From contig NZ_JARKMX010000008.1 of NCBI RefSeq assembly GCF_029360705.1, positions 2,100,202-2,164,201 of the forward strand: DNA of 64,000 nt, written 5' to 3'. The first letter of the stretch is position 1; each line of letters begins with the position of its first letter. The DNA is from Paraflavitalea pollutisoli. GTDB taxonomy: Bacteria > Bacteroidota > Bacteroidia > Chitinophagales > Chitinophagaceae. The notes under the pieces were generated by a model. The model worked only from the letters and a program-made list of their open reading frames with translations, did not search any database and was not told the origin of the DNA. This document shows positions 25,162-42,241 of the stretch, piece by piece. The translations under genes and the position numbers were made by a program.

Positions 25162-25476
25162 GTCTATTGGTTTATGGCAGACCGGATACGAAAAAGGCAT
25201 CTGTAAGGGCACAGGGTATTGTTACCAAAATATGATATAATGACGGTTTCAGGACGTATTTTTTGGAATACCAAAACAAAGTTCTAAAATTGTGCTCTCA
25301 TTCGTCGCTAACAAACCCGTGTCACACGGCTTATATCTGGTAAGGTTTACAGCGATACGTGCAATTCGTTAATTACTAAATCCACCTCCCCCTTTAAATA
25401 TTAACAGACCGCTCTGTATCAGCAGCAGGTAGATGTCGATTGGCAACTAGATTGTTATTTATATTGGTTAAGGCAT
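25162..25476. other. Non-coding stretch between divergent genes
   Basis: This 315-base AT-rich stretch lies between the esterase and the second ECF sigma gene. It must hold both promoters. I see T-rich elements (such as TAGATTGTTAT near 25448) but no full TAnnTTTG box I would defend, and no small gene. Confidence 0.5.
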
Positions 25477-26073
25477 ATGCAACCGGCAGCATTACACATA
25501 ACATTAATACAAAAGGGCGATGCGGGCGCCTTTGAAGCGTTGTATCACCGCTTCTACAAAAAGCTCTGCTATTTTGTAGACCAACTGATCCACGACAGTG
25601 CGGTCGCCGAAGAAGTCGTTGCAGACACCCTGAATAAATGTTACCGGCTTCGCGAACGGTTTGGTGACCTCGATGCGGTAGAAGCTTTTTGCCGGGTAAC
25701 CTGCCGCAATGCGGCTTATGATCACTTGCGGGCGCAGAAAAGAGTACATGTGCGCAAAGAGGAGTTGACGCTGTTGCAAGAACAGGAAGAGCGGCTGGAA
25801 TTTGAACGTACTGCTTTGCACGCACTCATTGAAGCAGAAACGATGAAACGACTGCATGATGAGATCAACAAGCTGCCACAGCGCCGCCGAGAAGTGATCC
25901 AACTATATTACCTGCAGAACCTGCGCACAGAAGAGATTGCCGAAAAATTGCAGATTACCACGGCTACAGTTCACAAGACACGCCAGATGGCGTTGGAACA
26001 GCTTAAAAACGTATTCACAGAAAAGAATATACTGGCCAGCCTGGCAGCTTTGCTGATACGTCCCTTCCTGTAA
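25477..26073 (+). CDS. ECF RNA polymerase sigma-70 factor
   Basis: This 198-residue ECF sigma factor heads the second sigma/FecR/SusC/SusD set. Region 2 covers AFEALYHRFYKKLCYFVDQLIHDSAVAEEVVADTLNKCYRL; region 4 covers INKLPQRRREVIQLYYLQNLRTEEIAEKLQITTATVHKTRQMAL. As in the first sigma gene of this window, the protein ends in a hydrophobic tail (ILASLAALLIRPFL). It should direct transcription of the downstream receptor genes when released by FecR. FecR follows after 325 bases, so the two may be separate transcripts. Confidence 0.93.
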   Translation: MQPAALHITLIQKGDAGAFEALYHRFYKKLCYFVDQLIHDSAVAEEVVADTLNKCYRLRERFGDLDAVEAFCRVTCRNAAYDHLRAQKRVHVRKEELTLLQEQEERLEFERTALHALIEAETMKRLHDEINKLPQRRREVIQLYYLQNLRTEEIAEKLQITTATVHKTRQMALEQLKNVFTEKNILASLAALLIRPFL

Positions 26074-26398
26074 CCCTACCCTTACGATGCCATCTTACAA
26101 CTGTTATCGGCGTACACTTCCGTCCGATCATTTCTACTTTTACCACCGACACATCAGCAACACTGTAATACACACACCTGCACCACGCGTTTCGCCTATT
26201 CGTCATGATTAATACCTACCGCAACTATACAGCTTATTCAGACACGAATTTACTTGTGATATTACCCTATTGTTATGTATCTCCACTTAGAGCATGTTCA
26301 TAACGGTGTGGACAACTCATTATAAGATTTCTACCTAATCGGATACTACTTCTTTTCGAATTACTCGTGTATACTGGCAACGTTAAAAAAGCAGCAGG
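26074..26398. other. Non-coding stretch between sigma and FecR genes
   Basis: This AT-rich 325-base gap is unusually long for a sigma/FecR pair. No open frame with coding character and no clear hairpin was seen. A sigma-dependent promoter for FecR may lie here. Confidence 0.5.
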
Positions 26399-27661
26399 AT
26401 GTCTGATCAACAAGAAAAGGATTTGGCCGACCGCATCAGCTTATTGATTCAAAAGTATCACAACGATTCGATCACGGACGATGAACTCGCAGCCCTTGAG
26501 CAAATCAAGGATATGAGCGCCGAGCATCGTGCACAGATCGAGAACCTGATGACCCAGGATTATTTACGGGCAGGACTCGATCAGATGAGTAAATACAAAC
26601 GGCCTTTACAGATCAACTACGACAGGCCCGCTGTGGAGGAACACGATATACCAGCGATACCTGTAACCACCAAAGCCCATTCATCACGCATCTATATAAG
26701 GATGGCCGTTGCTGCATCGCTGGTAGCGGCTGCCTTTCTTGCCTGGTATTTTATATTATCGCCCAAGCTGGTTAGCGATAAGGTACAATATGCATCCGCG
26801 GTATCGGCAGAAGACGTTTTGCCGGCCGCCACCAGGGCCCGCCTGGTGTTATCGACGGGAGAAGCGATCAACCTGGATAGCCAGTCCGTGCATGCACTGG
26901 CCAATGAAGGTGATACGCGGATCAACCTGACGGGCAACGGTCAATTGGAATACCTTGCTGCTGAAACCACTCCTACCACTACCAACCGGTACAACACGGT
27001 GACGGTACCCAAGGGCGGGGTATTCAACATTTTGTTGGCCGATGGCACAAAGGTCTGGCTCAACAATGATTCCGAATTGAAGTTTCCGGTTTCCTTTACC
27101 GGTACCGAGAGAAGGGTTATACTGAGCGGCGAAGCGTTTTTTGAGGTAGCGAAAAATGCGCAGCGCCCATTCGTAGTGGAATTGCCCGACTCGAAGTCGA
27201 TCACCGTCCTGGGAACCGTCTTCAACACACGCGCTTACAAGGAGGAAAAGGAGTTCACGACTAGTCTGGTGGAAGGATCGGTACAGTTATCGAGTCTGGA
27301 TAATACCAGGCCCAGAGGTTCCCGCACCCTTACGTTGCGCCCCGGTCAGGAAGCGACCCAGCAACGAGGCACTACCGTCATGACAGCCCGTACACCAAGG
27401 CTGCTACTAGATTCTTATTCCTGGAGAACCGGGCTATTTCATTTCGAGGATGAGCCCATTCAGGACGTCATGAACCAGGTAGCCCGCTGGTACAATATCT
27501 CCGTGGTGTATGAGGGTTCCCCACCCAAAGACATCGTAAGTGGCGATATCTATCGTACATTACCATTGGCCAGTGTACTGGCAAGCCTTAGTAAGATCAC
27601 CCATGCTACTTACGAGTGGAAAGCACCTTCCTCGGTGATCGTGCGCGAAAAGGCTCCGTAG
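26399..27661 (+). CDS. FecR-family anti-sigma factor
   Basis: The 420-residue single-pass inner-membrane protein has an N-terminal sigma-binding helical part (about 1-70), a membrane segment near 102-122 (MAVAASLVAAAFLAWYFIL) and a periplasmic FecR domain. That domain carries the hallmark VPKGGVFNILLADGTKVWLNNDSELKFP and GTERRVILSGEAFFEV. A C-terminal DUF4974-type domain follows (SWRTGLFHFEDEPIQDVMNQVARWYNISVVYEG). It transmits receptor occupancy from the STN domain of the downstream SusC to the upstream sigma factor. Base composition is still like the chromosome at large. Confidence 0.95.
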   Translation: MSDQQEKDLADRISLLIQKYHNDSITDDELAALEQIKDMSAEHRAQIENLMTQDYLRAGLDQMSKYKRPLQINYDRPAVEEHDIPAIPVTTKAHSSRIYIRMAVAASLVAAAFLAWYFILSPKLVSDKVQYASAVSAEDVLPAATRARLVLSTGEAINLDSQSVHALANEGDTRINLTGNGQLEYLAAETTPTTTNRYNTVTVPKGGVFNILLADGTKVWLNNDSELKFPVSFTGTERRVILSGEAFFEVAKNAQRPFVVELPDSKSITVLGTVFNTRAYKEEKEFTTSLVEGSVQLSSLDNTRPRGSRTLTLRPGQEATQQRGTTVMTARTPRLLLDSYSWRTGLFHFEDEPIQDVMNQVARWYNISVVYEGSPPKDIVSGDIYRTLPLASVLASLSKITHATYEWKAPSSVIVREKAP

Positions 27662-27886
27662 GAGCAGCCACTCTACAACACCTAACGCTGCTACCAACCC
27701 GCTTAAAGAACCAGATCCTAAGAACTCCGCACTAACGAAACGCTATACGCTTGCTGCAAATTCTGTAAATCATCATTCCACCTTTGCCGGGGCGCCTACT
27801 TTCTGTCATTAATTGGCGGATCGGTATTGTATTGTCCAGCTCCGGCAAACTGAAAAAACAAGCAAAACAACCCAAAACTTTCAAGC

Positions 27887-30800
27887 ATGATCTCAGTTGC
27901 CGCCAGCCTTCGCTCATTTTCACCCTTGCGACATCGACGCCTATGGATCTTGACCACCCTCTGCCTGTTGCAATTGTTAAGCGCACGTGCTTACCACGAT
28001 AACGAAGCCGTGACCCTGACCGCCAACCAGCAACCACTCATCACCGTATTAGACGAACTAAAACGCCAAACCAATTTTGCGTTTGTGTACAACAAGGAGA
28101 CACTCCAGCAGGCGAATAAAGTAACGGCGACCTTCCGCAACACCCCTATTGCAGAGGCGTTGAAGACCATCTTTGCCCAGCAGCCCTTTCATTATTCAAT
28201 CGAGGGCAAACAAGTGACGATCTCCCTACCGGCCAGCAAGGCGATCGCGGAAAAGGTTACCACCACCCTTTCCGGCAACCTTAAAAAAAAACAGGTCCGC
28301 GGAAAAGTGCTCACCGAGCAGGGTGAGCCGGTAGCCGGCGCCCACGTGCAGGTGAAAGGTGAAAAATTGTTTAACACCGTCACCGACAACAACGGTGAAT
28401 TCTCGCTCGACGAGGTGCCGGATGACGCTACGCTCGTCATCACCGGTGTGAACATCGAGACGCATGAGGTAAATATCGGCAGCAAGAGCTCGGTAGTGGC
28501 GACGGTGAAGTCGAACGTAAAAACGATGGAAGAAGGAATCGTCGTAGCATACAACCACACCACTGTGCGCAAAAACGTCGCTTCAATCACCGTCGTCAAG
28601 GGTGACGCTATCCGCGACCTCCCCAACCGCAGCTTCGAGCGCGGCTTGCAAGGCATGGTGCCTGGCCTGCTCGTGACGAAAGGTACCGGCCAGCCCGGCG
28701 GTGGATTGGGGAATTTTGTGTTGCGGGGAATTGCAACGGGAGGAGATTTGTTAAGCGGAGGCTTAGCACGAAATCCACTTATTGTGATCGACGGGATACC
28801 TGTTCAGCAGGAGGGGGCTCAAATAGCCACCACTTCAATTGTTTACAATAACCCGATGGCTCAGCTGAACCCATCGGACATCGACAACATCACCGTACTG
28901 AAAGATGCTTCGGCAATCGCACTATATGGATCAAAGGCGTCAAACGGAGTTATACTGGTAACCACCAAAAAGGGGAAGGCTGGAAAAACCACCTATAACT
29001 TCAGACATCAGACAGATCTGAGTTACCTTGAAAAAGGTAGAATAAAAACCCTCAACCAACAGGAATACGTAGACCTTGTCTATGAAACTTATAGAAACAC
29101 AGACCCCGGGTATTGGACGGACGACCGCATTAAAACCGACCTTCTCCAAAAATTCCCATATCAGGTGGATAGCCGGGGCGATTCCAGCTTTTTACCTGCT
29201 CCCAACTGGGAAAAGGCACTTTACAACAAGGGAGCAGCCAGCATCACCAACGAGCTGTCGATCTCTGGCGGCACCGACAAAAGCATATTCTATTTTAACC
29301 TCGAACACCTTACACAAAACGGCATAGAAAAAGCAACAGGATTTGACAGAAGCTCGATGCGGTTCAACTTTGAGAATCGCCCGGCAAGCTGGTTGAAATA
29401 CGGACTAAACTCTACCCTATCCTATTCCGTACAAGATTTCAACTCCCAGGGAGCTAGCTACGCATTAACCACCAGCATGTCTCCCCTAAACGCGCTCTTA
29501 GACCAATCGGGCAACTACATTAATAACTATTCCTGGGGATTTGCGCCGTCAAGCAGCATTGGTTCAAACTCCAATCAGATTGCCAACCCCCTCATGCAAT
29601 CAAAACTTAACATCAATAGAAACAGATCGTATCGGAGCGTTGTAAAATTCTATGCCGAATTAAACCTGCTGAAACAGCTGACATTCAGCACCAACATAGG
29701 AATTAATTTCATGCTGACAGAAGCCATGCAAAAAAACCACCCCTCTTTAGCTTCAGGCGACCTATCTGTAGGCACGGGCAGTATTCAGGAACGTCAAATC
29801 CGCTACGCCAACCTGATCACCACCAATATACTACGGTACTCCCGGCAATTTGGCAACAAGCATAATATCAATATTTTACTGGGACACGAAGCTCAATTAT
29901 TCAACAACAAAAGCCTGACTTTAAAAAGAGACAACATCACCACCAATCCAGAAGCAGAGCAACTAAACCTGGGCACTATTAGTATAGGCGAAGGGAGCAT
30001 TTCAAAACAAAACCTGCTCTCTTATTTCGGACAACTAAATTATAACTTCAACACAAAATACCTTTTCTCAGGTAGCATCCGCCGAGACGGCTCTTCCCTA
30101 TTTGGAAGTAAAAATCAGTTTGGCAACCATTGGTCAATGGGCGCTGCCTGGGTGATCTCTGAAGAAAACTTCCTCGCCAGCACCAGCAAAATAATAGACT
30201 ACCTGAAAATCAGGGGCAGCATTGGCTCTGCAGGCAATTCAGCTTCTATGGCCAGCTTCCTGCACCAAGATCCGGTTTTACTCAGAAACTATCTTTCCCA
30301 GAATACCATATTCTCCAGTATCTCTCTAAATCCAGGTAACCCGACGATTAGATGGGAAAAAACGCTCACCTGGGATGCCGGCCTGGAAATCAAGTTTTAC
30401 AACTCCAGACTTGCCGTTACAGCAGACTACTACAATCGTAAAACGACTGATCTGATTGTAAATAACATCAACGTACCATTCTCGAGTGGTTACAGCTACT
30501 TTTCCAGCAACCTGGGAGACCTCAACAACAGGGGCATTGAACTCTCCGTTAGCCTAGACATCATTCGTCAAAAGCAATTAACCTGGAACGTTACTGCTAA
30601 CTGGAGCAGAAACACCAATCGTCTGATCAAAGCCTATTTCCCGATAGAGAATGTTGCCGGTACTTATCTAACCAACGAAGAAGGCAGAAATTACAATTCA
30701 TTTTATATGAAAAGGTGGGCCGGGGTTGACCAGGGAAGTGGCAGACCCCAATGGTACGACTCCACAGGAAAACCCTCCACCAATAGCAATGCAGCCAAAA

Positions 30801-31330
30801 GCGAGTTTGTAGGCAAACCTCAACCTGACGCGATCGGGGCGTTTACGAATACCCTGAATTACAAGGGATGGGAATTATCCTTCATGTTTTACTACCAGTA
30901 TGGATTCCAGATCTATGATCTCTACAAATCACAAGCTCTTCTATCTGACGGCTTAGACCCATTTCTCAACCAAAGTCGGGAAGCCCTCAACAGATGGCAA
31001 AAACCAGGAGACCTTGCCCCTAATCCCAGGAGAATACTGTTTGGCACAACGCCCACAGAGACTGATAATGGATCCCAAATATCAACCCGGTATTTGTACG
31101 ATGGCGATTTCATCAAACTGTCCAACATAAGACTCGCATACACAGTTTCTCAAAGCCTGGCACAAAAGCTCAGGTTAACAAGCCTGCGGATCTTTCTACA
31201 GGGTAACAACCTGAAAACCTGGACAAAATATCCAGGCTACGATCCCGAGACTGTAGGTTACCCAGGAACCTCATCATCGCCCTACCCGCTACAAAAAGTT
31301 TACTCCGCAGGCATCAACGCAACATTCTAA
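27887..31330 (+). CDS. SusC/RagA TonB-dependent receptor with STN domain; composition changes mid-gene
   Basis: This 1147-residue outer-membrane receptor has a signal/anchor (about 18-36), an STN signalling domain (about 45-112), a carboxypeptidase-D-like domain (about 136-200), a plug and a barrel ending in KVYSAGINATF. The SusC signature is altered: GIVVAYNHTTVRKNVAS replaces the usual VVVGYGTxxK. The first ~800 bases are GC-rich (34 of 60 in 28321-28380) and the barrel part is poorer (28 of 60 in 29401-29460), with the change near residue 271 in the plug. This suggests domain replacement by recombination. It pairs with the SusD 19 bases downstream. Its cargo is unknown and could be a peptide rather than a glycan, since no glycosidase is nearby. 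Confidence 0.95.
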   Translation: MISVAASLRSFSPLRHRRLWILTTLCLLQLLSARAYHDNEAVTLTANQQPLITVLDELKRQTNFAFVYNKETLQQANKVTATFRNTPIAEALKTIFAQQPFHYSIEGKQVTISLPASKAIAEKVTTTLSGNLKKKQVRGKVLTEQGEPVAGAHVQVKGEKLFNTVTDNNGEFSLDEVPDDATLVITGVNIETHEVNIGSKSSVVATVKSNVKTMEEGIVVAYNHTTVRKNVASITVVKGDAIRDLPNRSFERGLQGMVPGLLVTKGTGQPGGGLGNFVLRGIATGGDLLSGGLARNPLIVIDGIPVQQEGAQIATTSIVYNNPMAQLNPSDIDNITVLKDASAIALYGSKASNGVILVTTKKGKAGKTTYNFRHQTDLSYLEKGRIKTLNQQEYVDLVYETYRNTDPGYWTDDRIKTDLLQKFPYQVDSRGDSSFLPAPNWEKALYNKGAASITNELSISGGTDKSIFYFNLEHLTQNGIEKATGFDRSSMRFNFENRPASWLKYGLNSTLSYSVQDFNSQGASYALTTSMSPLNALLDQSGNYINNYSWGFAPSSSIGSNSNQIANPLMQSKLNINRNRSYRSVVKFYAELNLLKQLTFSTNIGINFMLTEAMQKNHPSLASGDLSVGTGSIQERQIRYANLITTNILRYSRQFGNKHNINILLGHEAQLFNNKSLTLKRDNITTNPEAEQLNLGTISIGEGSISKQNLLSYFGQLNYNFNTKYLFSGSIRRDGSSLFGSKNQFGNHWSMGAAWVISEENFLASTSKIIDYLKIRGSIGSAGNSASMASFLHQDPVLLRNYLSQNTIFSSISLNPGNPTIRWEKTLTWDAGLEIKFYNSRLAVTADYYNRKTTDLIVNNINVPFSSGYSYFSSNLGDLNNRGIELSVSLDIIRQKQLTWNVTANWSRNTNRLIKAYFPIENVAGTYLTNEEGRNYNSFYMKRWAGVDQGSGRPQWYDSTGKPSTNSNAAKSEFVGKPQPDAIGAFTNTLNYKGWELSFMFYYQYGFQIYDLYKSQALLSDGLDPFLNQSREALNRWQKPGDLAPNPRRILFGTTPTETDNGSQISTRYLYDGDFIKLSNIRLAYTVSQSLAQKLRLTSLRIFLQGNNLKTWTKYPGYDPETVGYPGTSSSPYPLQKVYSAGINATF

Positions 31331-31349
31331 TTGCCCAAAAACAAGAAAC

Positions 31350-32810
31350 ATGAAACTATACCACCTATCAATACTATTCTCCATTTCATTTTTATACTCA
31401 GCTTGCACTAAATCATTTCTCGACATCAATGACAACAGCAATCTTTACAGGCAAAACGCTATAAAGGATGCCGCAACGCTGGGAGCCTATAACACAGGAA
31501 TGCTACAGGAATTTGCGGCTGTCTTTCAACATGGTGTTGGCAGTGGATACGCAGAGATCATATCGGACAATCTAAAACCCGTTGATGGCGGCAAAACGCT
31601 ATTTTTCCATTACAACTGGCAACAGGAAGTCGACACCCGGGATGGGCAAGCATACTTTGGCGCTGACCCAAAGGCCAGATCAGCTAATCCGATGTGGAAA
31701 AATGGCTACCGAATCATCAGAAACTGCAATTACATTCTGGAAGAGGCAGCGAAATACCAAAGCGAAAATCCTACACTCATAAATACCATCAGAGGCCAGG
31801 CCCTTGCCTTGCGAGCTTTCCTTCACTTAAAGCTCTCCATGGTTTTTGCGCAGCACTACACTTACAGCGCCGATGGCTCACATCCGGGGATTCCTTACAT
31901 CACATCCTCCAATGTGGCCGAAAATTTCCCAAGAATTTCCGTCCGAGAAGTTTACAAAAACATGATCGAAGATTTAGAACGCGCACAGGCATATTTACCG
32001 ATCAACCTAACCGATCCCAGAGTATTTAATAAGGAATCCGTCATTGCCTTATTATCGCGTATACTTCTGTTTAAAGAAGATTTTGCAAAAGCGGAGCAAA
32101 ACGCCCTATCCGTGATTAAAAACCACCCACTACTACAAATCACGGAAGGCTATCCCGCCCGTATCTTTATGTTCGATGGTCAAAACAAAAAAGCTGAAAC
32201 TATACTCCAGTTAAGTCCTCAGGGAGGCCCCTCTCTCGGCGCTACTACGTTTTTAGGTGTATACCTCAAGAAATACCTAAACTGGTATGCAACTAGTGAC
32301 ATTGCCAGTATGCTACGAGAAGACACGTTGGATATTCGTTGCAAATGGGTACAACCCCTCGGGGATTCATGGATGGTAACAAAATTCCCCGAAAATGTAG
32401 CTCCGGAGGTGTCCCCTGCACTTAGTCAACCCACAGCATCCTACTACGAACCGATCATCAGGAGTTCTGAGCTGTATCTAATTGTTGCAGAATGTGCGGC
32501 AAAGACAGGCAATTCCAGCACCGCACAAGAGTACCTCAACGCAGTCAGGTTAAGGGCAAACCCCAACAACCTGCCCATAGCTCCGATAGGCAATGCACTA
32601 ATCGACTCTATCTATAAGGAAAGAAGAAAAGAGCTTGCTTTCGAGGGTTTACGCATGTCCGACTTACAAAGGTGGAAACAAGGAGTACATCGGGTTGATG
32701 CGCTACCCGGATCACCTAAAGACCTCCCCTATCCAAACGATAAATCAATTGCTCCTATACCACCGAATGACGTAAAACTGGGCGGTATTTCACAGAACCC
32801 AGCCTATTAA
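31350..32810 (+). CDS. SusD/RagB-family lipoprotein
   Basis: This 486-residue outer-membrane lipoprotein has its lipobox at YSAC (cysteine 19), followed by TKSFLDIND, the usual SusD start. It shows TIRGQALALRAFLHLKLSMVFAQHY (the conserved helix before the binding face), then SELYLIVAECAAKTGNSSTAQEYLNAVRLRA, and IYKERRKELAFEGLRMSDLQRWKQG near the end. It caps the SusC encoded 19 bases upstream. Low GC and A-rich codon use match the following genes rather than the FecR gene. It is the substrate-binding half of the importer; substrate unknown. Confidence 0.95.
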   Translation: MKLYHLSILFSISFLYSACTKSFLDINDNSNLYRQNAIKDAATLGAYNTGMLQEFAAVFQHGVGSGYAEIISDNLKPVDGGKTLFFHYNWQQEVDTRDGQAYFGADPKARSANPMWKNGYRIIRNCNYILEEAAKYQSENPTLINTIRGQALALRAFLHLKLSMVFAQHYTYSADGSHPGIPYITSSNVAENFPRISVREVYKNMIEDLERAQAYLPINLTDPRVFNKESVIALLSRILLFKEDFAKAEQNALSVIKNHPLLQITEGYPARIFMFDGQNKKAETILQLSPQGGPSLGATTFLGVYLKKYLNWYATSDIASMLREDTLDIRCKWVQPLGDSWMVTKFPENVAPEVSPALSQPTASYYEPIIRSSELYLIVAECAAKTGNSSTAQEYLNAVRLRANPNNLPIAPIGNALIDSIYKERRKELAFEGLRMSDLQRWKQGVHRVDALPGSPKDLPYPNDKSIAPIPPNDVKLGGISQNPAY

Positions 32811-32836
32811 ACGCCAACCCATAAAATAATCCCGGC

Positions 32837-35407
32837 ATGACTGATATACTTACAATCGCACTACTCGTACTTCAATTTCTCAAGCTGGACACAACAGCTG
32901 AAATTCTCAAATCCCATCCAACCCAACAAACAAATACAAAAGATCACATAACCATAAAAATTCTATCATCAGACAGCACAACCCAGCAACTACTTCTATC
33001 AAAAGCCGAGATTATTGGCCAGGAAAGAGACTGGGAACCTATCGCCCGTAGTGCGGAAAACCCAATACCGACCTATTCCTTTGCTACCAATTCACCACAT
33101 TACCTGTCACTCGAATCGCTTTCCAGCAGATTTAAATACAGAGCCCTTCTATTAGAACCCGGTGACAACATCACATTCCATGTAACCCCGGAGAAAGTCG
33201 CTGCTACCGGCAAGGGGGCCATCAAGTTTGAACTACTTGAGAAAATCGACCAGTTTCAAAAATCTATCCCTCTACCCAACAATACGCGCGACTATATAAC
33301 CACCTCTATCGACGATTATTATGAATGGGACGCCTATCTTAACAAGCTAGTAGCGGGAAAAGACTCCATCCTTTCGCACTATCAGGCAAAATTGTCAAAA
33401 TACAGCTATACCCTGCTTCGGGCACTCATGATAGATCAAAATATAGATGATCGTTCGGACAAATTCTACAATTTGGTTTTTGGCCTGGCTAAAACCCAAA
33501 AAATCCCAGGCAAAATCTTATGCAAGATCTACGACTCACTTTACTACCCTGCGACGAATAGCCGATTCCAGTTCTGCTCCACCATCATTTACGGAAACTG
33601 GAAACCCATTCTTTTTAGCATACATCGAACTTACAATTTCAACCGAACCGACTCTACCTATCAGGCGAAGTACAATACCTGGATTACCTGTTATCAAAAA
33701 GGAATCGACCACTATGTTGGCCTTAACAAAGAGCAATTCATCATCGATTTCCTTTACAAACACTTACTCAAGGAGTTTGGCTTCACCAAAGAGCTGGAAA
33801 CTTACCTGAAAGATTATTATTCCAGTAGTCAATCGGAGGAGTGCAAACAATATTTAAAGTCAAAAGAGTCACGCCTGCGCCGTATCATCAATGGCCGGAA
33901 AATTCCCGACTTTGATTTGGAGGACCCCAATGGCAACACTGTAACCAATACCATCCTAAAAGACAAAATTGGCATCATCGAGTATTGGTTCACCGGCTGT
34001 GCGGGCTGTATACAAACCGCAAAAACAATTCAAAAAGCAGAGGACCACTTTAGAGACGACACCAATGTAGTATTTCTCAAAGTATCCATAGACGGAAACA
34101 AATCGACCTGGCAACAAAGTATTAAGAAGGGACAATACACCTCCCCAACGGGAATTCATTTATTCACACAGGGGCAACAAGAGAATCATCAATTTATTAC
34201 TCAGATGGATGTAACAAGTTATCCAACACTTCAGTTTATCGACCCATTTGGGCAATTGTTAACGCCCACCATGCGTCCCGCTTCCCTGAAAAGCAATCCA
34301 GACAGTTTGATCCAATACATTTCGACTATTCGCCAGAACCAATTTGACGGTCCCTACCTGTACGAACAAGGCAACTCAAAACTTTTAAAAATAACCAGAA
34401 ACCAGCACCAAATCGACTCTCAAATAATTACCAGCGATGAAGACGTGTCTGTTGCAACAGACCAACTTAAAAAAGTATTTTCATTTCGTGTTGCGAACAA
34501 TGTAAAAAAACAGCCTTCCTACTATAAAAATCCCACTTCCATTTTCGCCCTTTCAGACATAGAGGGAAACTTTGCGGCATTCAGAAAACTATTGGTTGCG
34601 AACCATATCATCGACACCAATTTGAACTGGAGCTTTGGTAACGGACATTTCGTCATATGTGGCGACGTTTTTGATCGGGGAGAACAGGTTACGGAATGTC
34701 TTTGGCTTATTTACAAACTAGAACTACAAGCTATTGAAATGGGTGGTTATGTACATTTCATTATGGGCAATCACGACGTAATGAACCTACAAGGAAATAG
34801 CCGATATGCACAAAAAAAATATACCCAAACCGCGAACGACCTGAAATCACAAGGAATTACGTTATACCCTCCCCATTCTATTTTGGGCAAATGGTTGAGA
34901 ACTAAAAACATCGTAGAACAAATCGATAGCCTGATTTTTGTGCATGGAGGACTGGGAATTGAGTTTACGAGCGAGGTTGCAAATTCCAACCTCGATGAAA
35001 TCAACAACCAATATCGCCAATCGATCGGCACCAAGTGGAATGATTTGCCCAAATCAGACACCCTCTCCCGGGCCATTTTCCATCCTGCAACAGGTCCCTT
35101 ATGGTATCGTCAATACTATACAGATTCTGAACGCTTACAGCTCGGAAACGATACTACCACAAAATTCACCGTCCAAAAACCATCCCAGGAACACTTCGAC
35201 AGGTTACTAAAAAAATGGAAAGCGTCCAAGATCATCACCGGACACACGATCGTGTCTGATACCGTATCATCGCACTATAACAACAAACTAATCAACATCG
35301 ATACAAAACATAGTGCCGGAAATTCAGAAGCGCTACTCATTGAAGGTAATAAATACTATCGGGTCAATAACCTTGGAGAAAGAATCCCATTATTTAAAGC
35401 ATATTAG
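32837..35407 (+). CDS. Thioredoxin (TlpA-like) / metallophosphatase fusion protein
   Basis: This 856-residue protein has a short hydrophobic N-terminus (ILTIALLVLQFL) and a roughly 350-residue N-terminal region of the type that precedes TlpA domains. The TlpA-like thioredoxin domain (about 356-500) carries the redox motif CAGC at 388-391 and cis-proline 463. A calcineurin-like phosphatase domain follows (about 568-850). The phosphatase site appears intact: SDIEGN (D574), GDVFDRG (609-615), GNHD (644-647), FVHGGLG (H703) and ITGHT. This layout resembles PPP-like bacterial phosphatases. Predicted periplasmic. It would combine disulfide exchange with dephosphorylation, an unusual pairing. It lies 26 bases after SusD in the receptor operon. 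Confidence 0.88.
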   Translation: MTDILTIALLVLQFLKLDTTAEILKSHPTQQTNTKDHITIKILSSDSTTQQLLLSKAEIIGQERDWEPIARSAENPIPTYSFATNSPHYLSLESLSSRFKYRALLLEPGDNITFHVTPEKVAATGKGAIKFELLEKIDQFQKSIPLPNNTRDYITTSIDDYYEWDAYLNKLVAGKDSILSHYQAKLSKYSYTLLRALMIDQNIDDRSDKFYNLVFGLAKTQKIPGKILCKIYDSLYYPATNSRFQFCSTIIYGNWKPILFSIHRTYNFNRTDSTYQAKYNTWITCYQKGIDHYVGLNKEQFIIDFLYKHLLKEFGFTKELETYLKDYYSSSQSEECKQYLKSKESRLRRIINGRKIPDFDLEDPNGNTVTNTILKDKIGIIEYWFTGCAGCIQTAKTIQKAEDHFRDDTNVVFLKVSIDGNKSTWQQSIKKGQYTSPTGIHLFTQGQQENHQFITQMDVTSYPTLQFIDPFGQLLTPTMRPASLKSNPDSLIQYISTIRQNQFDGPYLYEQGNSKLLKITRNQHQIDSQIITSDEDVSVATDQLKKVFSFRVANNVKKQPSYYKNPTSIFALSDIEGNFAAFRKLLVANHIIDTNLNWSFGNGHFVICGDVFDRGEQVTECLWLIYKLELQAIEMGGYVHFIMGNHDVMNLQGNSRYAQKKYTQTANDLKSQGITLYPPHSILGKWLRTKNIVEQIDSLIFVHGGLGIEFTSEVANSNLDEINNQYRQSIGTKWNDLPKSDTLSRAIFHPATGPLWYRQYYTDSERLQLGNDTTTKFTVQKPSQEHFDRLLKKWKASKIITGHTIVSDTVSSHYNNKLINIDTKHSAGNSEALLIEGNKYYRVNNLGERIPLFKAY

Positions 35408-35485
35408 CACTTACCAATTATATCAGGCATAAAACGCCACAACACAGGACAGCTAAACAATGATGATTTAAGAAGTTAACATTCA

Positions 35486-35504
35486 CGTGCATTCTTCCTG
35501 CACG
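35486..35504 (+). other. Small RNA hairpin upstream of the Cys-peptide gene
   Basis: A 6-bp perfect stem (35486-35491 with 35499-35504) with a 7-base loop lies in the 172-base gap before the peptide gene. No T-run follows, so processing or translation control is as likely as termination. Confidence 0.4.
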
Positions 35505-35579
35505 CTCAGATTCTAATTTTAAAAATGAAACCAATTTCAATGGCCATTGAATGCTTCATTAACTTTTAAATCATTATTT

Positions 35580-35876
35580 ATGAAACTCAATTTCAAAAGC
35601 GTATCAATTCTTAGCCTGGTGCTCATGGGCGCCTCTGCAGTTACAGCTGCTATCATCCCAACAAAACCTGCCGACCTACGCGTGCAAGGTTCTATTAGTC
35701 AAGCTGGTACAGACGCCAACGTATTAACTTGTACACCGACAGCACAGATAAATGACAAAGCTTGTAATGCTTCAACTGCAGCAGACTCACAAACTACACA
35801 GGCAGGAGAAGACAATAGCTGGGTAACTGTAAACGGCGTTCAAGTTCAAACGACCGGAAACACAACTACCAAATAG
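35580..35876 (+). CDS. Small secreted Ser/Thr-rich peptide with two cysteines
   Basis: This 98-residue peptide has a Sec signal (about 1-23, ending SAVTA-A). The mature part of about 75 residues is rich in threonine and serine (about 19 residues) and has exactly two cysteines, C51 and C62 (C-x10-C), set in LTCTPTAQINDKAC. Size and layout recall the small secreted peptides (DUF6520/NVEALA types) next to TlpA and lipoprotein genes in Bacteroidota, but I do not see the NVEALA motif. ATG 35580 is chosen for the signal peptide. A strong hairpin follows the stop. It is a plausible substrate of the thiol-disulfide, phosphatase and kinase proteins encoded around it; that is inference. Confidence 0.8.
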   Translation: MKLNFKSVSILSLVLMGASAVTAAIIPTKPADLRVQGSISQAGTDANVLTCTPTAQINDKACNASTAADSQTTQAGEDNSWVTVNGVQVQTTGNTTTK

Positions 35877-35902
35877 CCGATTTACCAGAGCAAAAAAACA
35901 CG

Positions 35903-35935
35903 AACAAAACTTTCTCATCCCGAGAAGGTTTTGTT
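35903..35935 (+). terminator. Strong stem-loop after the Cys-peptide gene
   Basis: A 14-bp stem with one G-T wobble (35903-35916 with 35922-35935) and a 5-base loop; the 5' arm is A-rich and the 3' arm T-rich. It probably stops or trims transcripts so that the peptide mRNA is more abundant than that of the following genes. Confidence 0.7.
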
Positions 35936-35980
35936 TGTCGATCACTATTATCCTCAATTTTCACCTCCACTACCCAGCTC

Positions 35981-37135
35981 ATGAAACGTGCCTTCACGCT
36001 ATTTTTTCTGTATCTCCTGTTTGGCTGCGAAAATACGCCCCAAACCACCTACCAGGAATACTCATTCACAGAACCTGCCTACAATGAGTCGATCAGGATC
36101 ACCACTACTACTGACACACTCCATTTCGCACTATCAGACAGTACATTCAATCAATTTAGCACGATAGGATATAACAAAATAGACAATAAAGGCTATCTGA
36201 CATTCTACGATAAACGATCACAGAGTATAAACCTCTTCGACTTCGATAACCAAAGTCACTTCAAAAGGATTGATATCAAGCGAGTCTTTCCCCACATAAA
36301 GCTTTACAAAGTATCGATCTTCATCAAATCGCTGGACAGCATTTTCGTTACGGAAATGAATCGCCTCCACCTCATCAACAGCCAACCAAGTTTGTTATCT
36401 ACGTACACTTTAAAAGACGATGTCAGTGCTTTTGCCTACCATGATAATATCGCCCCTGCATTTCAGGTCAAAGACACGATTTATATGGCAGTCAGGCCTT
36501 TCGTGGAAGAAACATCCTTATCAGCAGTCAAAAACTGGAAGTTATTATACGGGATCGATATCAAGGATGATAAAAAGAAGATGTACCTCAACCTGCCCCC
36601 TATTTATTGGACAAATTATTTCACCGATCGATATTTTGAATATAGCTATTGTATCAATGATAGCGGGCATATTGTTTTCAGTTTTCCGGCAGATTTCAAG
36701 ATTTATGAAACGAATCTAAATGGCCTTACGAGGGGATATTATGCTAAGAGCAAATCTTTCTCTTATCAACCGGAGACCATTTCGAAAGAGATCGTCGAAA
36801 AGGACAAAGGCTTCAGGGAATATGTCACAAGAGATGTATATGGTCCTCTTTTTTACGACAAATACAGAAAACGATATTGGAGGCTGGCCCGGGCCAAATT
36901 GTCTAATGAAGCATATGACAAGGGAGTAGAAAAAAGGAAAGAAAGCATCATTGTACTGGATGAGCATATGCGCGTTATCGGAGAATGCCCATTTTTAGGG
37001 GATTATGTCTATAAAACCCTGCTATTTCTTCCAGACGGCAGGATTTATGCGCAGGTCAGCAATAAAGATGAAAATTTTTTACACTTTGTCAGGATAGAAT
37101 ACAACGAAATCAACTCCCAACTATCAAAATTATAA
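35981..37135 (+). CDS. DUF4221-like lipoprotein
   Basis: This 384-residue lipoprotein has its lipobox at LFGC (cysteine 16). The mature part is built of repeating beta-strand units with internal phrases such as NKIDNKGYLTFYDKRSQSINLFDFDN and SIIVLDEHMRVIGECPFLGDYVYKTLLFLPDGRIYAQVSN. This is the pattern of a six-bladed propeller of the DUF4221/BF3164-like type that accompanies small secreted peptides in Bacteroidota. No catalytic motif is seen. It is placed between the Cys peptide and a CxxC lipoprotein, spacing 12 bases to the next gene. Its likely role is binding a peptide or protein at the cell surface. Confidence 0.78.
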   Translation: MKRAFTLFFLYLLFGCENTPQTTYQEYSFTEPAYNESIRITTTTDTLHFALSDSTFNQFSTIGYNKIDNKGYLTFYDKRSQSINLFDFDNQSHFKRIDIKRVFPHIKLYKVSIFIKSLDSIFVTEMNRLHLINSQPSLLSTYTLKDDVSAFAYHDNIAPAFQVKDTIYMAVRPFVEETSLSAVKNWKLLYGIDIKDDKKKMYLNLPPIYWTNYFTDRYFEYSYCINDSGHIVFSFPADFKIYETNLNGLTRGYYAKSKSFSYQPETISKEIVEKDKGFREYVTRDVYGPLFYDKYRKRYWRLARAKLSNEAYDKGVEKRKESIIVLDEHMRVIGECPFLGDYVYKTLLFLPDGRIYAQVSNKDENFLHFVRIEYNEINSQLSKL

Positions 37136-37147
37136 CGCTTTATACGG

Positions 37148-37645
37148 ATGAAAAGCTACTATCTCCTGATCTTGATGGCAATCATAGCAGGTTCGTGCAA
37201 AGACAAAGATGGCAACATAGAAATGGAAGCGATCGTTGCGGGGCAACAAATACCTATCTACGCAAAACTCACTACGCTATTCGGGAGTATCCCCAGCAAC
37301 GACTCTTTGTCGGTATTGATCCTTCCTATCGATATCACCTGTCCCTCCTGCCGAAAAAAGATTCTTGTGGGATTCATGAAACACAAAGATCACCTTAAAA
37401 CAAACCACTATATTATCATTGCTGGCAATGGGGGCAAAAAACATATAGACGGATATTTCCAGGAACATAAACTGAGGTTGCCAACAGGTATAAAACGGCT
37501 AGCTTTAGACACGATTGGCCTGATGAAAAACAACGCCCTATTTGACGATGAGCCGGTAATCTATTATGGAACCAACCAAAAGATCACTGCAAAATCCAGG
37601 GTCTACCCCGACAATGTAAAACAACAGCTTCAATCGTTCTTCTAA
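37148..37645 (+). CDS. Thioredoxin-like lipoprotein with CPSC motif
   Basis: This 165-residue lipoprotein has its lipobox at AGSC (cysteine 17). The mature part has one hydrophobic strand leading into LPIDITCPSCRKKIL, a CxxC redox motif at the start of a helix as in thioredoxin folds. A second strand (HYIIIAGNGG) and a long C-terminal part follow. It is shorter than a typical TlpA, so the fold assignment is moderately sure. It would be a second thiol-disulfide protein in the operon, besides the TlpA-phosphatase fusion, and could act on the two-cysteine peptide encoded upstream. Confidence 0.75.
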   Translation: MKSYYLLILMAIIAGSCKDKDGNIEMEAIVAGQQIPIYAKLTTLFGSIPSNDSLSVLILPIDITCPSCRKKILVGFMKHKDHLKTNHYIIIAGNGGKKHIDGYFQEHKLRLPTGIKRLALDTIGLMKNNALFDDEPVIYYGTNQKITAKSRVYPDNVKQQLQSFF

Positions 37646-37661
37646 AACCATAATCAACAAT

Positions 37662-38513
37662 ATGTTCAAAACACCCAACATCATGCTCCGGGCACCCAGT
37701 AGTACGGGCAAAGCACGTTCATTTCCGATCAGGGTCAAGGACAAATTGCTTCAGGAGCCTTGTGAATTTGAGCGCAAGCAGTACCTGGTGGCACTGACTA
37801 TTCACAAGCTAAACTTCCTACCGCTTAGACGAAAGCTGATCAAGAGCAATATCATCGACAACAAATATCAATGGAAACCCAAAAACCATGATATTATTCT
37901 ATTCATTGACACCTTTGAAGGCGACAATATCAGCAATTGCCTTTGGCTGCTGTACTCTTTGGAGGAAAAGGCAAAAGTTGAAAACAGCTATTTGCACATT
38001 ATATTGAATCCAGGCCATCTCGTTGACCTAAAGGATGAGTGGGCACTTCATCATCCAGAATATCCCGACGCGCCTCTTTTACATCAATCCACCACCGCTC
38101 TGTATCAGGGAAACAAGGAAATATGGAACTGGCTTAAGACCAAAAATGTCATAGAAAAAATAGGGAATATGACTATCCTACACGATACAACATTATCCTA
38201 CGTAGCCAATAACCCTGTATCCTTAACAGAGTTAAACCAACTTATTAACCCACTATCCGACAGCAGAACATCATTCTCTGCATCAGCAGCATCAACCTGC
38301 CACCTCCCGGTTTCATACCTGCCTTTTTTTGGCACCTCCGCCATACTTTATGCAACCCATCAACCACCAACACAGCCCCAGCCCAAACAATCTGTAGCGG
38401 TATGGATCAATGCGGCTGCCACTGATGAAGGGGCTCATTTTGCCCAGGTCTACTTCAATGGAAATACGTATCGTAGCCGAATCATAAACACGGCCAAATC
38501 TGCCAGCTCCTAA
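37662..38513 (+). CDS. Degenerate metallophosphatase-like protein (pseudophosphatase)
   Basis: This 283-residue protein has no signal peptide. From about 41 to 185 it aligns by eye with the phosphatase domain of the fusion protein upstream: RRKLIKSNIID with FRKLLVANHIID, CLWLLYSLEEKA with CLWLIYKLELQA, and WLKTKNVIEKIG with WLRTKNIVEQID. The metal and catalytic motifs are lost: SDIEGN becomes LTIHKLN, GDVFDRG becomes IDTFEGD, GNHD becomes NPGH, HGG becomes HDT and GHT becomes THQ. It is therefore a paralogue unlikely to hydrolyse phosphate. It may bind the same phospho-substrate or control the active enzyme. The lack of a visible signal peptide is odd, since its paralogue is predicted periplasmic. 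Confidence 0.82.
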   Translation: MFKTPNIMLRAPSSTGKARSFPIRVKDKLLQEPCEFERKQYLVALTIHKLNFLPLRRKLIKSNIIDNKYQWKPKNHDIILFIDTFEGDNISNCLWLLYSLEEKAKVENSYLHIILNPGHLVDLKDEWALHHPEYPDAPLLHQSTTALYQGNKEIWNWLKTKNVIEKIGNMTILHDTTLSYVANNPVSLTELNQLINPLSDSRTSFSASAASTCHLPVSYLPFFGTSAILYATHQPPTQPQPKQSVAVWINAAATDEGAHFAQVYFNGNTYRSRIINTAKSASS

Positions 38514-38652
38514 CAAGACTACAAAACCCCTACAGCTCATGCAGACAAACAGAAGGTCGAGTTGTGTAAATAGACATACGGGAAAACACAACTATCCAAT
38601 AGTTACCCCCAAACAGTAAACCTTGCGATCAGGCAAATGGCCCTTAAGCTTA

Positions 38653-38677
38653 ATAGAGCCGCGAACTGCGGCTCTAT
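38653..38677. terminator. Hairpin between convergent genes
   Basis: A 10-bp perfect stem (38653-38662 with 38668-38677) and 5-base loop lie between the pseudophosphatase and the kinase/LanC-like gene. No clear T-run on either side. Confidence 0.5.
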
Positions 38678-38710
38678 GGGGAGAGATTAATTGCGGGTTG
38701 CAACGGAATT

Positions 38711-40825
38711 CTAAGTATTCTGATTAACCCGTACCCACTTCATCAGAAAAAGCGCCACACCCGTATTCCCGACCATCAAATCTGCTACAGGCTTCCGCTC
38801 CCCCTCCACCAACCAAAAAGGGCCTGCCGCTTCATCATCCCTGCGAAGGTTCAAAATTACCTGCACTATCCATTCTGCACGATGGAACCACTGATCGTCT
38901 CCAAATACTTTCGCAGCTTGTAGGTAAATCTCACCCAAGCCACTCAATCCATCAGCCTGACTCAACATCCCATCCACTAACTCCGCCTCAAAGCTATGTA
39001 AGGCGCCATAGGCAAATCTCTTAAATACTATATTCCCTGTACGTTGAAACGCATTTATAAAGGCAGCCGCGATACCCGCTGTCCCCTCACGAACCCAAGG
39101 CGCCATACGCTTCTTTTGAGAAGAAAGCCATTCCACTTTGTCCCTTTTCCAATTAGCTTTCCGCATCAGCCAGGCCAAACCAGCCTCTGCAGCAGGCAGC
39201 GCCGCCCGATCGTCATATCGCGCACTGTACTCCAATAGAAAAGCAACTATTCCCGCAACTCCGTTATGATACCCTTTGGTAGCCCGTCGCTTCTTCTCAT
39301 CTCCTTCCCTATTCCAGGACCCATCTTTTTCCTGCGTTTCCAACAATAAGGAAACATAAGCACTGGTCGCCTGATGAATTTTATCTGTCAAAACTATATC
39401 CCGGCACCCCAAATAGGCAATGCCCTGACCAGCAACCCCGGAAGAATAGTTAAGTCTGGTGTTAGGTACCTGCAATAAGAGATTGATCCACTCTACAAGC
39501 TCAGCGTCATGCCCCAACACCCCACTCCTCATGCCTTCAGACAATGCCAGGGCAATACCCGACGCACCCGTATGCAAGCTTGGCGATGCCCGCTCAATCC
39601 TGTCGATGTATTTCTTCCTGATCAAAACGATGCCTTGCTCAATAGCATCTTCAAATCCATCGACTTCAAATCCATTTACCTTCGCCTGACTCAAGAAATA
39701 AATAACACCCGCCGCTCCGTTGTACAAACTTGCGTACCAAGCCTTATTAATGGTATTCTTATCCACCTTCACCGGCATCTTCTGATGCTCCGAGAACCAT
39801 CCTCTATTTCGATCGCACAACAGCTCACTGTGTAGTGTTCCAATAAATCGCTGCACCAATTGCCTTACCTCATCTTTATCAATAACCGGCGCTATAAATT
39901 CCCCATTGGTTGCAGGCGCTTCGATCACCCTATCAATTACCTCAATAACCTCCGCTATCGTCGGCCGTTGCGCCGCATCCACCTTGAGACACCGCTGCAA
40001 CAGCCCCGCCAATTCCTTATCCGGCACAAAGAATGCTATCCGTTGCTGCAACCCGGCTTCCTCACTACACAAGATCTTATTGGTCGAAATCCCCGTCACC
40101 ATAAAAAGAAAGACAGCCCCCAACGCATACACATCCTGCGCCTTGGTAGGTATTTCTGTACGCAGCTGCTCAGGCGACATATAGCCATAAGTCCCCAATT
40201 TAAACGGGGGAGCCGGATAATCCAGGTCAAGGGAATAGCTCAACTCAAAATCGATTAGCCCCACTTTATTACCATGAATCATGAAGTTATTCGGCGTAAC
40301 GTCACGATGAATAATATTCTCCTGGTGCATACCTGCCATCAACAAGGCCATTTTACGCATGTACCGAAGCATCTTCAAACCCAGTGCATTCTTCTCCCGA
40401 TAAGCTGCGCGCAATGCACGCTGATGCCCCTTAACCAGTTTATACAGCGGTACCCCCTTGATTCGCTCGATCACCAGGTAATAATTCCCGTTCTCTTCAA
40501 AAGAGCCATAACACCGTGGAATCCGCAACTTACCCTGCAGTTGTTCGTGTAACTTCTTCTGCCACTTCAACCGGTCCTGGATATCGCGACCGTGTTCGTC
40601 TTTACTATCTCCTTGTGTGCCTTCTTTAATAACACACAAACCAAAATTGGTCAGACTTTTTATATACAGACATTTGACAACATCGTTCTTTTGGCTCTCC
40701 TTGAGACTCTTTATGATGATATAATTAAACCCAATCCGCTTGCCGCTTTTCTTCTCCACCTTTCCCAACGAGGCAGGCTCCTGTACCTCCTCTACTACTG
40801 AAGCAACCAATGTTTGTGTTTCCAT
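38711..40825 (-). CDS. Protein kinase / LanC-like fusion (class III-like LanKC relative)
   Basis: This 704-residue cytoplasmic protein has an N-terminal Ser/Thr kinase domain (about 35-300): candidate lysine K67 in CVIKEG, catalytic IIHRDVTPNN (H173, D175, N180), DFE for DFG (192-194) and GTYGYMSPEQ. An alpha-toroid LanC-like domain (about 355-700) has seven Gly-x-x-Gly repeats. The two cysteine zinc ligands of classical LanC are missing (the WC and CH positions read W577-V578 and A624-D625), although H520 in GYHNGVAG remains. This matches class III cyclases, but the N-terminal lyase domain of LanKC enzymes is absent. It may phosphorylate, or help dehydrate, a peptide. It follows the HTH gene by 12 bases. 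Confidence 0.9.
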   Translation of the reverse strand: METQTLVASVVEEVQEPASLGKVEKKSGKRIGFNYIIIKSLKESQKNDVVKCLYIKSLTNFGLCVIKEGTQGDSKDEHGRDIQDRLKWQKKLHEQLQGKLRIPRCYGSFEENGNYYLVIERIKGVPLYKLVKGHQRALRAAYREKNALGLKMLRYMRKMALLMAGMHQENIIHRDVTPNNFMIHGNKVGLIDFELSYSLDLDYPAPPFKLGTYGYMSPEQLRTEIPTKAQDVYALGAVFLFMVTGISTNKILCSEEAGLQQRIAFFVPDKELAGLLQRCLKVDAAQRPTIAEVIEVIDRVIEAPATNGEFIAPVIDKDEVRQLVQRFIGTLHSELLCDRNRGWFSEHQKMPVKVDKNTINKAWYASLYNGAAGVIYFLSQAKVNGFEVDGFEDAIEQGIVLIRKKYIDRIERASPSLHTGASGIALALSEGMRSGVLGHDAELVEWINLLLQVPNTRLNYSSGVAGQGIAYLGCRDIVLTDKIHQATSAYVSLLLETQEKDGSWNREGDEKKRRATKGYHNGVAGIVAFLLEYSARYDDRAALPAAEAGLAWLMRKANWKRDKVEWLSSQKKRMAPWVREGTAGIAAAFINAFQRTGNIVFKRFAYGALHSFEAELVDGMLSQADGLSGLGEIYLQAAKVFGDDQWFHRAEWIVQVILNLRRDDEAAGPFWLVEGERKPVADLMVGNTGVALFLMKWVRVNQNT

Positions 40826-40837
40826 AGTTAAGTTTGA

Positions 40838-41140
40838 TTAAGAAGCTAGTAAAACAAAATAAATACCGGCATAACTAGCCACACTGCGCAGACTACTGGC
40901 AACCCTCGATTTACAAAATGAGAAATCAATTTTAAAAACGCCCTCTTCGACATAATAGAAGGTAGATCGGTAGTGATCATACTTAATAGGTGCACCACCA
41001 CTTTTCATTTTATTCAAACAATCATACAGGCACCTCCGGGAAATACCCAGGCGTTCCGCAAACTCATCGGGCGTGCCAGTCCCCTTGATCCGTATCAAAC
41101 GGTCAATGTTCTGGATGCGGATAATAAAATCTGCTTGCAT
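40838..41140 (-). CDS. Small HTH regulator upstream of the kinase/LanC-like gene
   Basis: This 100-residue protein has a helix-turn-helix (about 22-48, TPDEFAERLGISRRCLYDCLNKMKSGG) followed by the beta-wing phrase APIKYDHYRSTFYYVEEGVFKI. This is common in small Bacteroidota regulators found next to peptide-maturation genes. The C-terminal 25 residues (SFCKSRVASSLRSVASYAG...) are serine-rich and end hydrophobic. It is the first gene of a two-gene operon with the kinase/LanC-like gene (12-base gap) and probably autoregulates it. No receiver or ligand domain is seen. The 208-base gap to the divergent GLPGLI gene should contain its promoter. Confidence 0.82.
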   Translation of the reverse strand: MQADFIIRIQNIDRLIRIKGTGTPDEFAERLGISRRCLYDCLNKMKSGGAPIKYDHYRSTFYYVEEGVFKIDFSFCKSRVASSLRSVASYAGIYFVLLAS

Positions 41141-42239: not shown

Positions 42240-42241
42240 CC

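Follow-up and report, generated by a model that had tools for sequence, protein, structure and literature searches.

How is an enzyme built like a lanthipeptide synthetase, but missing the lyase domain, used by the bacterium that keeps it? The question is raised by a locus of Paraflavitalea pollutisoli (Chitinophagaceae) lying within a 64,000-nucleotide stretch of its 8.76-Mb genome (the whole stretch is called the window here). Genes for a sigma factor, FecR, SusC with an STN domain, SusD, a fusion of a TlpA thioredoxin-like domain to a phosphatase, a small precursor peptide, a DUF4221 protein, a CPxC lipoprotein and a degenerate phosphatase are met there by a convergent pair of genes, which encode the kinase/LanC protein in question and a helix-turn-helix (HTH) regulator. 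A reading of the nucleotides alone (the original prediction) had proposed a peptide-modification and receptor locus in this place; open reading frame, Pfam and NCBIfam checks locate every gene it named where it had put them, and add that the kinase/LanC protein is without a lyase domain and without the zinc ligands of LanC. The answer that we favour, to which we give an even chance of being correct, is that the locus encodes a system for phosphorylating a peptide, evolved from class III/IV lanthipeptide synthetases and paired with a periplasmic TlpA-phosphatase.

The ancestry of the kinase/LanC enzyme lies in class III/IV lanthipeptide synthetases. Its LanC-like domain is recognized both by Pfam (LANC_like, E 3.6e-20) and by fold, and the best structure matches of its model (19 relatives, pLDDT 85.4) are CuvL, ThurKC, SalKC and PneKC, the first of which we take to be a class IV enzyme. 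As in class IV LanL (CuvL, PDB 8CAR/8CAV; the best structure match, TMq 0.73), a kinase is followed by a LanC-like domain on one chain, and LanL is the best NCBIfam profile, but the match begins only at profile position 183 and reaches 256 bits against an equivalog cut-off of 650 bits. Because the match begins there, the N-terminal lyase is missing, and because the lyase test failed, the system is not classed as a lanthipeptide system. Kinase residues K67, D175, N180, D192 and E194 are invariant at 27 of 27 loci (the window and 26 others, numbered with the prefix L; genomes have the prefix G). The zinc ligands of LanC (Cys, Cys, His), unlike those of LanL, are wholly lost at 23 of the 27, the window copy having WVREG and SQADG, and are partly kept at L127 and L130. 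The class III LanKC enzyme ThurKC, in the available text of PMC10604976, is similar in its DF(E) kinase motif and in a LanC domain without zinc ligands, but it possesses a lyase and yields dehydroamino acids only with its lyase-kinase and cyclase domains together, whereas the window locus has no lyase and a dedicated phosphatase. The window enzyme carries no export signal.

A search for RamC_N was negative in the P. pollutisoli genome and, with it, in 12 of the 14 genomes that hold the cluster; in the other two, RamC_N occurs in separate frames of 890-931 amino acids (aa). The original prediction had the peptide phosphorylated or dehydrated: phosphorylation fits the conserved kinase residues, and dehydration with lanthionine formation is unsupported because the lyase domain is missing, RamC_N was found nowhere else in the genome and the window copy has none of the LanC zinc ligands. 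Other synthetase-like proteins were seen at related loci. An extra kinase at L117:16215-17588 (-) and L123:13915 (-) carries a RamC_N that has lost its catalytic residues and has no LanC domain. Upstream of the HTH and kinase genes, L119:8319-9671 and L123:8340-9695 encode 450-aa proteins that match LanC weakly and kinases not at all.

Kinase, fusion and peptide form one co-inherited locus. Within the genus, the kinase/LanC and fusion genes are close together in four of five genomes, and the fifth has neither. Within the family, a close full-length kinase/LanC orthologue is present in 13 of 294 genomes, and a fusion frame of at least 823 aa in the same 13 (G156 is too fragmented for a call), at a distance of 3.2-6.0 kb in the 12 genomes that have both on one contig; Fisher's test on 13/0/0/280 gives 7e-23, a value that treats related genomes as independent, which they are not. 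By itself, the phosphatase domain is more widespread (44 of 294 genomes). A profile of the peptide, built from some of the cluster genomes themselves, picks it up in 12 of 288 family genomes, each of which holds the cluster; the matches fall inside the cluster, save three additional copies in G268 (G268:C1:6167381-6168610, some 11-12 kb upstream of that genome's own fusion gene), and the cluster genome G288 is not among them, yet its peptide is evident at L103. An order-level search with the kinase was positive in 9 of 298 genomes, all of the same family, and thus added no new lineage; the best named matches of the window kinase are in Niastella, Longitalea, Chitinophaga and Pseudobacter. The lyase-less kinase was found nowhere in the family samples outside the cluster genomes, nor were the peptide or the fusion. 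Independent occurrence of these homologues, the pattern that would have spoken against the original prediction, was not seen. This strict co-occurrence rules out a chance neighbourhood or an ordinary nutrient-uptake locus.

A scan of named genomes together with the family genomes yielded the 26 other loci after removal of duplicates (L118, L120, L122, L125, L131, L132, L145 and L152) and of the G156 fragments L111 (a split kinase frame on a 4-kb contig) and L112; L104 and L105 count as one, since both are contig ends of G075, peptide copies missed by the E 1e-3 rule or by the reference set were dropped (for example L098:8887-9246 and the second L099 copy), and the L117 fusion runs off its stretch, with 693 aa visible. 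The core set recurs: kinase, fusion, peptide and HTH gene are present at 26 of 26, with the HTH gene always near the kinase, and DUF4221, the CPxC lipoprotein and a second phosphatase are each present at 24 of 26. Of the 27 rows compared, 15 include FecR; for many of the rest, the stretch stops within SusC or SusD. A gene for a protein of about 270 aa accompanies 16 of the 26 other loci, downstream of the kinase in 13 and upstream in L098, L146 and L160, and MauE accompanies 10. In Niastella and Longitalea, a 114-aa protein rich in Lys, whose C-terminal part is conserved, is encoded between the kinase operon and the phosphatase (L101:13804-14148 (-), L103:5603-5947, L105:244-588 (-)).

The peptide looks like the substrate that the original prediction took it for, judged by its leader-like signal region and its conserved Ser and Thr residues. 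With one copy per locus, mean pairwise identity is 0.538 over the first 28 residues and 0.234 over the rest (ratio 2.29), whereas DUF4221, SusD, the CPxC lipoprotein and the fusion have the reverse pattern (0.49-0.71, first 22 residues versus the rest), although the starts in this comparison, motif-based for the peptide and longest for the other families, favoured the leader reading. Under a single start rule for all families, the peptide gives 0.545 versus 0.243 (2.24) and the others 0.56-0.84 at 28 residues; at 22 residues the ratios are 1.94 and 0.54-0.74. A conserved N-terminus followed by a variable remainder is what would be expected of a leader and makes the precursor similar to those of ribosomally synthesized and post-translationally modified peptides (RiPPs); with the modifying enzyme encoded close by, the locus resembles a RiPP cluster. 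Ser and Thr make up 25% of the mature part (38 copies); two further exported proteins reach 14.5% and 12.3%. In all 38 copies a Ser or Thr precedes the first Cys (Thr in 24, Ser in 14) and the motif GN[ST] is present (Thr in 35, Ser in 3); columns in which Ser and Thr interchange rank among the best-conserved non-Cys columns of the core. Usually there are two Cys residues.

The fusion is consistent with the periplasmic redox and phosphatase processing foreseen in the original prediction. All 27 fusions retain the phosphatase motifs but only 16 the TlpA CxxC, so that the phosphatase is the constant activity of the protein. The closest solved relative of the phosphatase domain, homologous over most of its length (E ~2e-48), is the Shewanella psychrophilic phosphatase I (PDB 1V73, 2Z72), from which it differs by the attachment to TlpA and by a substitution in motif 1 that is taken up below. 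Bacterial PPP enzymes are either broad in specificity or Tyr-specific according to the available part of PMC535813; since 16 of 38 mature peptide parts contain no Tyr, a Tyr-only phosphatase would not fit. By eye, most fusions start with a signal-like stretch, and that of the window, with a hydrophobic start and few basic residues, is likely to be exported. The paralogue called dead in the original prediction has indeed lost, in the window, the motifs of the fused copy; across loci, all motifs are kept in 9 of 26 copies of the separate phosphatase. CPxC is conserved in 25 of 25 copies of the CPxC lipoprotein, whose presence appears to follow the Cys pair of the peptide: at the 25 loci that have it (window included) every counted peptide copy contains Cys, and Cys-less peptides occur at both loci without it (the sole copy at L127 and one of two at L130).

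Relatives that carry the lyase place these features in context. Kinases with RamC_N are longer (867 to 923 aa) and, in Chitinophaga and Mucilaginibacter, often adjoin genes for exported small peptides, MauE, TlpA and SusCD, often in a convergent arrangement, all of which recall the clusters of the lyase-less kinases; Pedobacter has a kinase-only or split form in the same surroundings, and two Olivibacter loci have peptides and no MauE. These clusters differ from the window locus by their lyase, by a TlpA that is not fused and by the lack of the phosphatase, which was found at 0 of 39 loci of RamC_N-bearing kinases (27 from Bacteroidota; L117 and L123 set aside) in flanks of up to 10 kb, shorter at contig ends. 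The lyase was scored by the ThurKC residues H67, K94, D152 and R163 (PMC10604976, available text), placed by alignment and motif with Arg allowed for Lys94. All four are intact in 11 of 23 full-length Bacteroidota proteins, with one residue lost in 2 and two or more in 10; they are intact in 12 of 12 proteins from other phyla, and two or more are lost in 6 of 6 kinase-only proteins. None of the 41 relatives scored has lost the kinase residues. On a tree of 62 proteins, on which L116 and L163 have long branches, the lyase-less kinases form one clade (100/100) and the state of the lyase changes at least five times, changes that we read as losses. Because the lyase has repeatedly changed or decayed while the kinase residues were kept, kinase activity rather than dehydration seems to be what selection holds. 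That the lyase was lost time and again among LanKC-type enzymes of Bacteroidota, turning them into peptide kinases, with the lyase-less clade as one branch, is a tentative proposal, to which, joined with the mechanism set out below, we give somewhat less than an even chance.

Several lyase-class loci deserve mention in their own right. Clusters of Mucilaginibacter, Chitinophaga and others (L134-L170, for example L142:9416-12046 and the genes that follow) have a lyase, many of them with MauE, two-Cys exported peptides, TlpA and SusCD. L168, L169, L173 and L174, like L117 and L123, have kinases with a decayed RamC_N and no LanC, which lie beside MauE or inside the cluster. Cys-less precursor-like exported peptides stand beside lyase-intact synthetases at L113:7053-7313 (-), L135:12213-12482 and L155:12234-12494, where no MauE was found; their products are possibly dehydrated and unbridged. 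The L113 peptide matches DUF6520 below the cut-off (E 0.014); at E 1, the window peptide matches neither DUF6520 nor any other Pfam family.

The mechanism that would follow from a peptide kinase paired with a periplasmic TlpA-phosphatase is a masking of the peptide by phosphate across the envelope, in which the Sec signal is read as a leader, phosphate is added in the cytosol and the TlpA-fused phosphatase unmasks the peptide in the periplasm; we hold this specific scheme to be credible at somewhat under evens. The kinase would recognize the signal or leader and phosphorylate Ser and Thr residues of the core before Sec export, with neither elimination nor ring formation to follow. In the periplasm, the fused phosphatase would strip the phosphates, and TlpA, the CPxC lipoprotein and, at some loci, MauE would handle the Cys pair. 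At the outer membrane, STN-SusC and SusD would move or sense the mature peptide and signal through FecR and the sigma factor. The likeliest role of the phosphate is that of a cytoplasmic mask or solubilizer removed after export. We infer that kinase and phosphatase contact the peptide, as well as which sites are used, what the phosphate is for and what SusCD does.

A number of points weigh against these proposals, beginning with the link between kinase and peptide just named. In the available text of PMC10604976, the isolated kinase domain of ThurKC left its precursor unphosphorylated even with the cyclase present, and by analogy a lyase-less enzyme may need another partner. Conservation of the signal region of the peptide could serve export alone. 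All three LanC zinc ligands are kept in two lyase-less copies (L126 and L133), and motif 1 of the fused PPP domain carries Glu instead of the His of the Shewanella enzyme. The window has no convincing match to the gene of about 270 aa or to MauE, the best being a 26-residue MauE match (E 0.54). L127 and L130, on which the association of the CPxC lipoprotein with peptide Cys rests, are sisters on the kinase tree. Since the lyase-less kinases are one clade, the 27 loci cannot be counted as so many independent events, and it may have happened just once, by coincidence, that a lyase was lost and a phosphatase gained. Decayed lyases in 10 of the 23 full-length Bacteroidota relatives come without a phosphatase, so that the phosphatase is not a general requirement; a strict swap of lyase for phosphatase, considered as an explanation, is weakened by the same proteins.

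Three other explanations were weighed. The locus might be a true lanthipeptide system of a class III/IV-like kind, in which dehydration is performed in trans by an unrecognized lyase, such as the protein of about 270 aa, or by a phosphatase turned eliminase, and cyclization is metal-free as in ThurKC. The scaffold and fold of the enzyme match LanL and LanKC, most precursors have Cys as well as Ser and Thr, ThurKC cyclizes without zinc (PMC10604976, available text), and the zinc ligands of L126 and L133 agree with it, as does a conserved protein encoded near the kinase at the majority of loci for which no PDB fold match is better than E 0.057. That protein (for example L124:12162-12947; model pLDDT 85.7) gave no convincing fold match that would identify it as a hidden lyase, however, and its gene has no match in the window or at 10 of the 26 other loci; peptide copies without Cys at L127 and L130 also speak against this reading. 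Lanthionine synthesis by a lyase in trans was rejected, RamC_N being absent from the genome itself (and from most cluster genomes, as given above) and a HopA1-family search having no match in 14 of 14 cluster genomes; a VRP3 search matched nothing, not even its controls, and so carries no weight here. We consider a lanthipeptide system very improbable.

Alternatively, the kinase/LanC protein could be a signalling kinase for some other target, such as the HTH regulator or the sigma/FecR branch, with the peptide an unphosphorylated partner or ligand of SusCD. Kinase and HTH regulator do form a convergent unit of their own, regulators flank the locus, and the kinase-peptide link is one that we infer; but at L102 (the same as L118) and L160 the peptide gene comes immediately after the kinase gene and in its orientation, exported peptides follow the kinase gene at many lyase-bearing sister loci, and both the LanC scaffold and the leader-like conservation suggest that a peptide is the substrate, all of which make a signalling kinase unlikely. 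A third possibility is that the peptide works in its phosphorylated, secreted state, for example by binding a metal or other ligand, and returns through SusCD to be stripped and reduced in the periplasm. STN-SusC, FecR and a sigma factor are the usual layout for sensing a ligand at the outer membrane, this layout is present at the locus, and a fused TlpA and phosphatase would suit the unloading of a disulfide-bearing phosphopeptide; however, no sequence evidence of metal binding or of re-import turned up, although no search was aimed at either, and we regard this scheme as a whole as distinctly unlikely. The favoured reading remains phosphorylation in the cytosol and its removal after export.

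The features of the locus are collected in Table 1. Signalling through SusC, FecR and sigma, as originally envisaged, fits the presence of an STN domain in SusC, the three together being a FecR-type surface signalling set. Signalling loci with FecR, an extracytoplasmic function (ECF) sigma factor and STN-SusC are known in Bacteroidota, where the genes downstream encode glycan enzymes; the window locus has the same order of sigma, FecR, STN-SusC and SusD, but has a peptide, redox proteins and a phosphatase downstream. Neither a leader protease nor an ABC exporter is encoded among the window locus genes, the only part of the genome searched for them, and the precursor has a Sec-like signal instead. 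Just past the HTH gene (41349-44917) are a GLPGLI-family protein and a large protein with a carboxypeptidase-regulatory-like N-terminus, with no sign of membership in the locus, and upstream of the sigma gene (24190-25212 (-)) is a BD-FAE family esterase. No RNA families or tRNAs were found in the window, and a PHROGs scan gave generic phosphatase matches and matches of unknown function only.

Table 1. Genes of the P. pollutisoli locus, with coordinates in the window
Feature	Start	End	Strand	Basis and remarks
ECF sigma factor	25477	26073	+	Pfam Sigma70_r2/r4; some related loci have similar sigma genes
FecR anti-sigma factor	26399	27661	+	Pfam FecR, FecR_C
SusC TonB-dependent transporter	27887	31330	+	Pfam Plug, TonB_dep_Rec_b-barrel; N-terminal STN signalling domain
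SusD-like lipoprotein	31350	32810	+	Pfam SusD_RagB, SusD-like_3
TlpA thioredoxin-like and PPP (calcineurin-like) phosphatase fusion, 856 aa, predicted exported	32837	35407	+	Pfam AhpC-TSA, Metallophos; CAGC
Precursor peptide, 98 aa, ATG start, Sec-like signal/leader, two Cys, Ser/Thr-rich core	35580	35876	+	38 copies at 27 loci
DUF4221 protein, probable lipoprotein	35981	37135	+	Pfam DUF4221, E 1.4e-19
CPxC lipoprotein (CPSC here), lipobox-like start by eye	37148	37645	+	No match in Pfam or NCBIfam
Degenerate phosphatase paralogue, no signal-like start by eye	37662	38513	+	Active-site motifs gone
Kinase and LanC-like protein, 704 aa, no lyase domain	38711	40825	-	Pfam Pkinase, LANC_like; NCBIfam LanL
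Small HTH regulator	40838	41140	-	HTH_11, weak, below cut-off

The gene set is apparently undescribed: the titles and abstract beginnings listed from the open-licence literature contain no description of this cluster, nothing on DUF6520 or DUF4221 was found in that literature, and the available portion of PMC10352776 does not mention SusC, TlpA or thioredoxin. According to the available text of PMC7268733, pinensins alone had been isolated from this phylum, most LanKC and LanL enzymes are from Actinobacteria and Firmicutes, and genome mining calls class III/IV from the combination of kinase and LanC domains. Lanthipeptide enzymes are regarded as producing dehydrated, bridged peptides, and the mining rule would label clusters such as this one lanthipeptides despite the lost lyase. 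If the proposed mechanism is true, phosphorylation would itself be the chemistry, undone after export, and the signal peptide would double as a leader; a phosphopeptide would be expected in the cytosol and an unmodified disulfide peptide outside. The same data suggest a group of peptide systems in Bacteroidota that have ties to SusCD transport and to redox proteins.

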